A stretch of 64,000 nucleotides of DNA from Denitrovibrio sp. (GTDB lineage: Bacteria > Chrysiogenota > Deferribacteres > Deferribacterales > Geovibrionaceae). A program made the translations under genes and the position numbers. The notes beneath the pieces are model-generated. The model saw nothing but the letters and a program-made list of their open reading frames with translations, was not told the DNA's origin and did no database searches. Position 1 is the stretch's first letter, and the number at the start of each line of letters is the position of its first letter. This document shows, piece by piece, positions 44,840-46,677 of the stretch. The DNA is taken from NCBI GenBank assembly GCA_002869145.1, contig PKTM01000015.1, positions 1-64,000 of the forward strand, in the 5' to 3' direction.

Positions 44840-44868
44840 TTGACAGTTTTAAAACATTACACTATTAT
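44840..44868 (+). promoter_or_regulatory. Strong promoter placed for a leaderless message
   Basis: TTGACA (perfect -35), 17-base spacer, TATTAT -10 ending only five bases before the ATG at 44874. The start site should fall on or next to the A of that ATG. There is no Shine-Dalgarno sequence. Confidence 0.6.
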
Positions 44869-44873
44869 TCTGT

Positions 44874-46145
44874 ATGAATAATAGAACAGCATTATACTAC
44901 ATTTTATCAGGTCCTGTTTATTACCAAGTAATAAAAGACAGACGCAGACTGCAGCTGCTGAAAAAAGAGGTTCTGAAAGAGGAAATTTATTTTTTTGAGA
45001 AAAGATACGTCATAAGGGAATCTTGGCATAAAAGGTATTTTAAGATTCTAATTGCTGTTTTCAGTGTAAACCTTATAGCTCGAATGATAGAAAGAAAAAT
45101 ATCACGATCTCATAGTGTTTACCAAGATAATTATTCAAAGTTTGCTTTCTCTACTATGCTGGCTTTAAGGGAATACAACAACAACAGATCTTTCTTTAAT
45201 ATTGAAACGGAAGAATTTATCATGCTTAAAGATTTGATAAAAATAATAAATGATCGCGTGAACATGTATTGCAATCATAAAAAGTGTCATTTTAACACCC
45301 TGTCTCTTATACATTCAAATACTCCTTTGGGTATTGAAATTGAATTCACAAACAAAGGCTCAAAGGCAGGAAAGTTCTTTGAGAACAAACAAAAGGATGC
45401 GTTGTTCAACTTTTCGAAATATCATTTTTATCATCTCATAAAGTTTATGTGGAGATTTGGAGCTTATGTTGATTCAGAAATGCCATTTAAGCAATTTATT
45501 AGGAAAGGCGGCTTTCTTGAATATACATTCACAAGACCAGACATAGCCTTTAAACCATCACAGCCACTTACATCAAGCCCTGCGCTAGCTGCCAGACTTA
45601 TAGAAGAATCTATAAGGTTTACACCTGTCAGGCCTCATAGCCTGCACATAACTTTTCAAATAGATGAAAATTCAAAAAAACTGCCTGTGGTTTCATATGA
45701 AGAATTGTTTTTTATGATGATTTGTACCGGACATTTTGAAAATACAGGCAAAGGTCTCATTGAAACAAGGATTTCTGAAGGAAACATGAAGGACTGGGCA
45801 GTTATAAGAGACAGACGCAATGATAAAGGGTGGGTCAAAACCGTAGAGTTTACACATATGCGTGCCTGCAGAAGTTTTGTAAAAAGAGGAGTTTATGAGC
45901 CGGCTATACTTCTTCTTCTTGCTTATAAAAACCTCTTTAACTTTGAAAACGTTGAAGGTCACTCCAGCAAACTGAGAGAGTGGGCAAAAGCTCCTAGCGT
46001 ACCGTCTGTTAACATAGATTTTATGCTGGAAAAAGTCTATAGAGGCCTGAGTTTAGAGGTTTCGCTTCCAGAACATTATAAAAAAAATACTATAAAGTTA
46101 ATAAGAAAGCTTTACGATTATAATAAAAGTATGCTAGATTCATAA
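44874..46145 (+). CDS. Amidoligase-like protein (possible GS/GCS fold), uncharacterised
   Basis: I do not recognise a named family over the full 423 residues. The N-terminal ~130 residues are basic with one hydrophobic stretch (YFKILIAVFSVNLIA). From about residue 150 the pattern LGIEIEFTNKG, GGFLEYTFTRPD, PHSLHITFQI and KTVEFTHMRACRSF follows the order seen in GS/GCS-fold amidoligases: ExE metal strand, LE strand, H-x-T/H strand, basic strand. Those enzymes join an amine to a carboxylate with ATP. The gene next door is a gamma-glutamylcyclotransferase, a known partner of such ligases. The gene is more AT-rich than its neighbours, which may mean transfer. It could also be a fold relative without activity. 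Confidence 0.55.
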   Translation: MNNRTALYYILSGPVYYQVIKDRRRLQLLKKEVLKEEIYFFEKRYVIRESWHKRYFKILIAVFSVNLIARMIERKISRSHSVYQDNYSKFAFSTMLALREYNNNRSFFNIETEEFIMLKDLIKIINDRVNMYCNHKKCHFNTLSLIHSNTPLGIEIEFTNKGSKAGKFFENKQKDALFNFSKYHFYHLIKFMWRFGAYVDSEMPFKQFIRKGGFLEYTFTRPDIAFKPSQPLTSSPALAARLIEESIRFTPVRPHSLHITFQIDENSKKLPVVSYEELFFMMICTGHFENTGKGLIETRISEGNMKDWAVIRDRRNDKGWVKTVEFTHMRACRSFVKRGVYEPAILLLLAYKNLFNFENVEGHSSKLREWAKAPSVPSVNIDFMLEKVYRGLSLEVSLPEHYKKNTIKLIRKLYDYNKSMLDS

Positions 46146-46170
46146 ATAATAATAATTATCGGAGAGACCA

Positions 46171-46677
46171 TTGGCGAAAGATTACACAGTCTTTACATAC
46201 GGCACATTGATGAAAGGCTTTTACGGCCACGACAATTTCATGCTGGATGCAGAGTTCATCGGAGAGGCCACTGTAAACGGGGATCTTCGCTTCTTCACAA
46301 TAGATTATCCTGTTTTAATCAAAAAAACAAAAGGGGGCAAACCTATAAAAGGCGAGCTCTACAAAGTTGACGAAAAAACCTTAAACAAACTGCGCAAGTA
46401 CGAAGGTATAGGGAACCCATTCACTTGTTACACTGAGCGGAATGTAACTGCCAAAACAAAAGATGGTGATGTGATTGCCCGCTCATTTGTAGTTATACCC
46501 CGCATAGAAATGGCGATGCTATTTACTTCAAGACATATATCCGAGTGTTGCTGGCGTAAGTTTAAATCAAAAAAAATGCGCCTGCCTATCCCGCAGCCTC
46601 TTATAATATCAGCCGCCGCAGGTCTGCTTGCAGCTATTGTCTGGGAAATGCACGCATACGGAATTATTCACCTTTAA
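46171..46677 (+). CDS. Gamma-glutamylcyclotransferase (AIG2-like) with C-terminal membrane helix
   Basis: The protein has 168 residues. The substrate loop FTYGTLMKGFY, the proline strand IDYPVLIKK, and GELYKVDEKTLNKLRKYEG with the acidic residue expected to act as the base are all present. GGCT-fold enzymes release 5-oxoproline from gamma-glutamyl amides. The C-terminal hydrophobic helix (IISAAAGLLAAIVW) is unusual and should anchor the enzyme to the membrane. The start is TTG with GGAGAG five bases upstream. It lies 25 bases after the amidoligase-like gene, so the two are probably one transcript and may act on the same gamma-glutamyl-type bond. Confidence 0.78.
   Translation: MAKDYTVFTYGTLMKGFYGHDNFMLDAEFIGEATVNGDLRFFTIDYPVLIKKTKGGKPIKGELYKVDEKTLNKLRKYEGIGNPFTCYTERNVTAKTKDGDVIARSFVVIPRIEMAMLFTSRHISECCWRKFKSKKMRLPIPQPLIISAAAGLLAAIVWEMHAYGIIHL

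Follow-up and report, generated by a model that had tools for sequence, protein, structure and literature searches.

An uncatalogued candidate ligase family paired with or fused to gamma-glutamylcyclotransferase-type proteins in Deferribacterota and Planctomycetota

Two neighbouring genes, one of an unfamiliar family and the other encoding a protein of the gamma-glutamylcyclotransferase (GGCT/AIG2) type, raise the question of whether their products act on the same compound. They lie in a window of 64,000 nucleotides, the whole stretch of Denitrovibrio sp. DNA analysed here. ORF1 (44874..46145, + strand, ATG start, 423 aa) is a predicted carboxylate-amine ligase and a candidate glutamine synthetase (GS)-like amidoligase, while ORF2 (46171..46677, + strand, TTG start, 168 aa) is a GGCT/AIG2-family protein. 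The genes are co-directional and 25 bases apart, exactly as a preliminary description of the locus had it, and GGAGAG stands at 46161-46166, upstream of the ORF2 TTG. The 2.88 Mb genome from which the window comes holds one ORF1 and one GGCT, the paired copy.

The sequence of ORF1 escapes the main protein family resources. Searches of Pfam and NCBIfam gave no match at E <= 10, nor did PDB sequences at the same threshold, and PHROGs gave none at E <= 1. As far as sequence comparison goes, the family is uncatalogued, with no entry in Pfam or NCBIfam. Of 51 genomes of the phylum Deferribacterota, 14 carry a homologue, full-length in 11 and divergent in three, the latter belonging to another class, possibly Chrysiogenia. 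A first protein fusing such a ligase to a GGCT was found in a Planctomycetota metagenome-assembled genome (MAG). The family was then counted in 7 of 392 genomes sampled across Planctomycetota, and in 99 of 397 genomes of the class of one of these carriers.

An alignment of 81 homologues, which span at least two phyla, defines the conserved core of the family, with Y55, G153, E155, E157, W193, G196, D200, G213, E216, P254, S256, H258, R299, R330, W370 and G391 conserved at 98-100%. All the following elements lie on the + strand. Motif 1, PLGIEIEFTN (45324..45353, residues 151-160), carries G153, E155, E157 and N160, the first three conserved at 99%, and its ExE is a predicted metal/carboxylate-binding site. 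Motif 2, WRFGAYVDS (45450..45476), holds W193 and G196 (both 100%) and D200 (98%). It is followed by motif 3, GGFLEYTF (45507..45530, residues 212-219), with G213, F214 and E216 (98%), and by motif 4, PHSLHITF (45633..45656, residues 254-261), with P254, S256 and H258 (98%). R299 (45768..45770) is invariant at 100%. Motif 5, VEFTHMR (45843..45863), contains the invariant R330, and the fusions have Q in place of its E325. The LGIEIEF, GGFLEYTF and SLHITF motifs singled out earlier are thus present, and conservation of their key residues at this level in at least two phyla argues that they are more than chance. The region before them (residues 1-135, 44874..45278) is also conserved, with Y55, N66 and N102, and is predicted to be all-helical in a low-confidence model. 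It had been described as a basic N-terminal extension. Its net positive charge is real (24 K+R against 14 D+E), but it is no add-on: fused homologues retain a helical region between GGCT and ligase, which makes it an integral part of ORF1.

The preliminary description placed ORF1 among amidoligases of the GS/GCS fold. The motif order of the family, ExE - D - E - H - R, is indeed that of Amidoligase_2 (PF12224), and the first strand reads GxExE, whose G, E and E are 98-100% conserved in Amidoligase_2. Details diverge after that point. W193 and D200 are conserved, with D followed by S in ORF1 of the window and DD or DH in other members. E216 is kept without the VSP that follows it in the ExVSP of Amidoligase_2, and SxH258 is kept with T, S or N in place of the second H of GxHxH. 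Membership of ORF1 in Amidoligase_2 was rejected on the missing second His of HxH and on the lack of any match to the PF12224 HMM, at E <= 10 for ORF1 and 15 family members, at E <= 1 for 49 fusions, and genome-wide; gp18 of phage LUZ24 does match this HMM.

More sensitive comparisons left a partial signal. Against a profile of 123 Amidoligase_2 sequences, which replaced a five-sequence profile that gave no signal, the profile-profile score was 24.9 for the whole family and 28.6 for its Deferribacterota members only. Column-shuffled profiles scored 13.9-14.5 +/- 2.3-2.6, with a maximum of 20.6 among 40, and the control pair Amidoligase_2 and COOH-NH2_lig, both described as amidoligase families, scored 22.9. 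One shuffle in a separate run of 100 reached 33.3, above the real score, so that the result is suggestive and not proof. Comparison of HMM to sequence, in both directions between the two families, gave nothing above the shuffles. Structure models, built from alignments of four rows, were poor for full-length ORF1 (AlphaFold2, pLDDT 56.5) and better for the ligase domain alone (pLDDT 71.3, pTM 0.77). For both models the most probable Foldseek match was a glutamine synthetase (8oon_A, probability 0.82; 5dm3_E, probability 0.60), with E 0.03-0.04 and TM 0.28-0.35. Neither the full-length nor the domain model had a match at E <= 0.001, and a BFVD fold search returned no meaningful match. The structure prediction proposed earlier for the ligase domain therefore pointed to glutamine synthetase without reaching significance, and the assignment to the GS/GCS fold keeps its motif order, a weak fold match and a suggestive profile score, but no sequence match in Pfam, NCBIfam, PHROGs or PDB. 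The models thus lend weak support to a GS fold, which is plausible, and ORF1 probably works like a GS-like amidoligase outside Amidoligase_2.

The identity of ORF2 is easier to establish and agrees with its first description. The GGACT domain (PF06094; 46189..46497, + strand, residues 7-109) is recognised at E 1.2e-17 and 65 bits, with a cut-off of 22.8, and the PHROG match is a gamma-glutamyl cyclotransferase. The YGTL signature (Y10-G11-T12-L13) and E78 of YEG (46402..46404, + strand), at the position of the GGCT catalytic Glu, are retained in all 11 adjacent GGCTs. In the fusions, Y24, G25 and the catalytic-type E104 are invariant in 49 of 49 aligned proteins. By sequence, ORF2 is an ordinary member of PF06094 with a predicted cyclotransferase activity. 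Its C-terminal hydrophobic stretch (46600..46650, + strand, residues 144-160), a possible membrane anchor, is modest (Kyte-Doolittle 2.02 over its 17 residues). Such a stretch exists in nine of the 11 adjacent GGCTs (1.46-2.79) and is missing in two; the fusions lack it, their C-terminus being occupied by the ligase. Membrane anchoring as an essential feature was therefore rejected. The membrane helix first described has its counterpart in ORF2, but a system confined to the membrane does not generalise, and anchoring is frequent but dispensable.

The association of the two proteins is constant in the loci inspected. The GGCT is the next same-strand gene in all 11 full-length Deferribacterota loci, with a gap that ranges, according to the start codons chosen, from -112 to +25 bases. 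The other neighbours differ among the four loci read, and no conserved neighbour besides GGCT was seen in these four. All 67 planctomycete homologues inspected are single chains, mostly of 640-730 aa, in which the GGCT is followed by the helical region and then by the ligase domain; in a Pfam scan of 49 fusions, no family but GGACT was shared by all (49/49). Within a GGCT tree that rests on a domain of about 120 residues and has limited resolution, the paired copies group with three orphan copies of genus g2 in one clade (support 0.96), while the fused copies form a separate clade (0.995) that groups with GGCTs linked to phage Amidoligase_2 (0.90). Since the two sets fall into separate clades, the ligase family probably acquired GGCT partners more than once, and such repeated acquisition argues for functional coupling. 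The co-occurrence with GGCT anticipated by the preliminary description was thus found in two arrangements and with separate GGCT lineages.

Several genomes depart from the simple pair. In genus g2 (G003-G005; L241, L244, L249), an orphan GGCT stands beside bioB, the ligase and the hydrophobic tail are missing, and YEG is changed to YED. Genome G006 has a full ligase-GGCT pair beside bioB, and the orphan state is probably a loss of the ligase. Persistence of the GGCT in this genus without the ligase implies that it has some use alone. In each of the three genomes with a divergent ORF1 homologue, the GGCT is part of a protein of about 400 aa (L033:9901-11130 (-); L245, L250, L257). In G014 the GGCT protein is a fusion with an N-terminal methyltransferase domain and is the convergent neighbour of a distant ORF1 homologue.

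Expression of the pair could follow a particular mode. A strong promoter-like site of the sigma-70 type, TTGACA-17-TATTAT (44840..44868, + strand), matches 11 of 12 consensus bases and ends 5 nt before the ORF1 ATG. The locus as originally delimited began at 44840, which is the TTGACA of this site. All 11 Deferribacterota loci (the one in the window and L022-L031) have a promoter-like site upstream of ORF1, its end 5-9 nt from the ATG; in most of them TTGACA stands at about -34 from the ORF1 start. Ten of the 169 genes of these loci reach 10/12 in this geometry; seven of the ten belong to the ORF1 family, and the remaining three seem to be orthologues of one another. This arrangement predicts a leaderless ORF1 mRNA, with its 5' end at the ATG or directly beside it.

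Conserved residues, constant adjacency, fusion and separate GGCT lineages are the direct observations from which a joint function may be read. From them we infer a fold, an activity, roles for single residues, a substrate and a direction for the pair. In our preferred reading, to which we give a probability of about 0.55, ORF1 is an ATP-dependent GS-like carboxylate-amine ligase of its own family, and the gamma-glutamyl-type amide that it makes is also the substrate of ORF2, a gamma-glutamyl (amine) cyclotransferase. Using E155/E157, D200, E216, H258, R299 and R330, ORF1 would bind metal-ATP together with an acid, glutamate or one like it, and form an acyl phosphate; it would then pass the acyl group to an amine carried by a small molecule or a macromolecule. 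ORF2, through E78, would later remove the acyl group and release the amine with 5-oxoproline. The net effect would be a transient gamma-glutamylation serving as tagging, protection or storage of an amine. Making and breaking such an amide is the simplest joint function that we can infer. A coupling between amidoligase and GGCT is also favoured by viral Amidoligase_2 loci, where a GGCT-like ORF occurs in 97 of 164 within the fetched flanks, mostly of 2 kb, and by genome G001, of the same genus as that of the window, which has neither ORF1 nor any GGCT.

The surroundings of the fusions offer hints on the substrate. In 35 of 67 planctomycete loci the fusion lies after a GT2 glycosyltransferase. 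A large ORF devoid of Pfam matches lies upstream in 34 loci and an alanine racemase in 21, and a GT9 heptosyltransferase or a Kdo/WaaP-type kinase lies downstream in about 14. About 22 loci, including L006, have none of these genes, and shared ancestry of the sampled genomes accounts for part of the conservation of this context. The glycosyltransferase-rich neighbourhood suggests an envelope-glycan amine as substrate in Planctomycetota; no context of this type was found in the Deferribacterota loci read. The large ORF upstream of GT2 and fusion (about 860-900 aa, hydrophobic; L312:106-2679 (+) and its relatives in 34 planctomycete loci) had no convincing NCBIfam match either, and is possibly an unrecognised membrane glycosyltransferase.

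Other explanations have to be weighed against these data. ORF1 could have another fold and chemistry, its ExE/H/R pattern being convergent, with the GGCT handling a gamma-glutamyl group on its product or substrate. Such a reading agrees with the lack of sequence match to any known ligase, the weak fold matches and the single shuffle that beat the Amidoligase_2 score. We nevertheless consider it doubtful, as the motif order is that of Amidoligase_2, the profile score exceeds the one between two described amidoligase families, GS came out twice as the most probable fold match, and phage Amidoligase_2 ligases are frequent neighbours of GGCT. The GGCT could also be a biosynthetic step removing a gamma-glutamyl protecting group, as BtrJ/BtrG illustrate in butirosin biosynthesis, the net product being another amide or amine. 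A single-chain fusion suits sequential steps, and the glycosyltransferase neighbours, together with alanine racemase in part of the planctomycetes, suggest biosynthesis; the pair stands alone, however, without pathway genes in the Deferribacterota loci read, and this option seems rather unlikely.

The chemistry would equally fit an ordinary turnover of glutathione or gamma-Glu-Cys, in which ORF1 would make gamma-Glu-Cys as a GshA substitute and ORF2 would degrade it. In a search for GshA-type enzymes restricted to the GCS2 type, 10 of the 14 genomes of the phylum with an ORF1-family gene lacked a GCS2-type glutamate-cysteine ligase, and its replacement is conceivable. The other four, including the genome of the window, have a GCS2 match as well; the pair had no glutathione genes next to it, and the neighbours of many planctomycete fusions include glycosyltransferase genes. 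With a GCS2 match in only four of 14 carriers, glutathione turnover is improbable as the main role. The frame of the GCS2-type match in the genome of the window (G000:C13:49362-50204) holds one TAG stop. Far less credible still is an origin of the pair as phage-derived or defence cargo. Its functional look-alikes, Amidoligase_2 and GGCT, are phage genes, but searches of 50,697 phage records and of viral contigs found no ORF1 homologue, nor did the plasmids searched yield any fused-type ligase. The neighbours in the window are housekeeping genes, and ORF1 is conserved across several families of one phylum. Returning to the make-and-break reading, a tentative and rather speculative extension can be formulated: ligase family and GGCT would together form a self-contained enzyme for gamma-glutamylation/deglutamylation, whose target would be an amine of an envelope glycan or of its lipid-linked precursor; in Deferribacterota the system would be encoded by a leaderless two-gene operon.

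The family deserves attention on several grounds. Automated annotation is blind to ligases of the ORF1 type and recognises only the GGCT part of the planctomycete fusion, which is carried by roughly one in four of the genomes sampled from one class. Fusion to GGCT in every planctomycete case inspected gives a testable handle on the role of the amidoligase-GGCT partnership, a question that also concerns many phage modules of like composition. Both halves would be contained in one purified fusion, so that making and breaking could be assayed together, and the glycosyltransferase genes around many fusions indicate where the substrate may be sought.

How far the system is new depends on the part considered. 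Pairs of Amidoligase_2 and GGCT are known from phages and mobile elements, including LUZ24 (gp18/gp22), Geobacillus phage GR1 and Tn6164. In LUZ24, Amidoligase_2 (gp18) and GGCT (gp22) occur together with a COOH.NH2 ligase (gp16) and a gene for a RimK-domain protein, and the annotation of UFV-P2 is much like this module (PMC3890496). An amidoligase adjoins AIG2/GGCT in Tn6164 (Orf22/Orf23; PMC3485107) and lies close to it in Clostridium prophages (PMC11318856). An aid to host nitrogen metabolism was proposed for a phage with both genes (PMC10945688). The literature searched yielded no tested biochemical meaning of the partnership. The claim of an undescribed system accordingly holds for the ligase family and not for the neighbourhood, common in viral loci (97/164) and annotated before: the partnership theme is already known, and the ligase family of ORF1 is the uncatalogued part. 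As a separate observation, an Amidoligase_2 domain forms the C-terminus of a helicase-like protein in Planctomycetota (L049, G217), with a GGCT-like gene directly downstream.

Each of the known families shares some features with the pair. The phiEco32-like COOH.NH2 ligase (PF14395) is an amidoligase-type family of the same phage modules (LUZ24 gp16), but ORF1 has no sequence match to it, and COOH-NH2_lig as a closer relative was rejected on profile scores at noise level (19.4 and 14.3, for a null of about 14.5 and a maximum of 22.5). Glutamine synthetase and GCS2 (PF04107) may share the fold, GS being the most probable match of both models, whereas TM stays at 0.28-0.35, sequence matches are absent and no GS/GCS2 domain was called in any homologue scanned. 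ORF2 has the YGTL signature and catalytic-type Glu of GGCT/GGACT/AIG2 proteins (PF06094); the family partners differ in the hydrophobic tail of nine of 11 adjacent copies, in forming the N-terminal domain of the planctomycete fusion, and in the methyltransferase fusion of the divergent G014, with proteins of similar length in two more genomes. Closest are the Amidoligase_2-GGCT pairs, with their GxExE, W..D, E, H, R order and a GGCT/AIG2 gene adjoining or near the ligase candidate. ORF1 nevertheless scores nothing on PF12224 and has neither the second H of HxH nor the SP that follows the conserved E in Amidoligase_2, and a glutamine amidotransferase or ATP-grasp gene, often added in the phage modules, was not seen with the ORF1 pair. 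The ORF1 family further differs from phage Amidoligase_2 in its conserved helical N-terminal region, in a chromosomal location in at least two phyla and, in Planctomycetota, in its fusion to GGCT.
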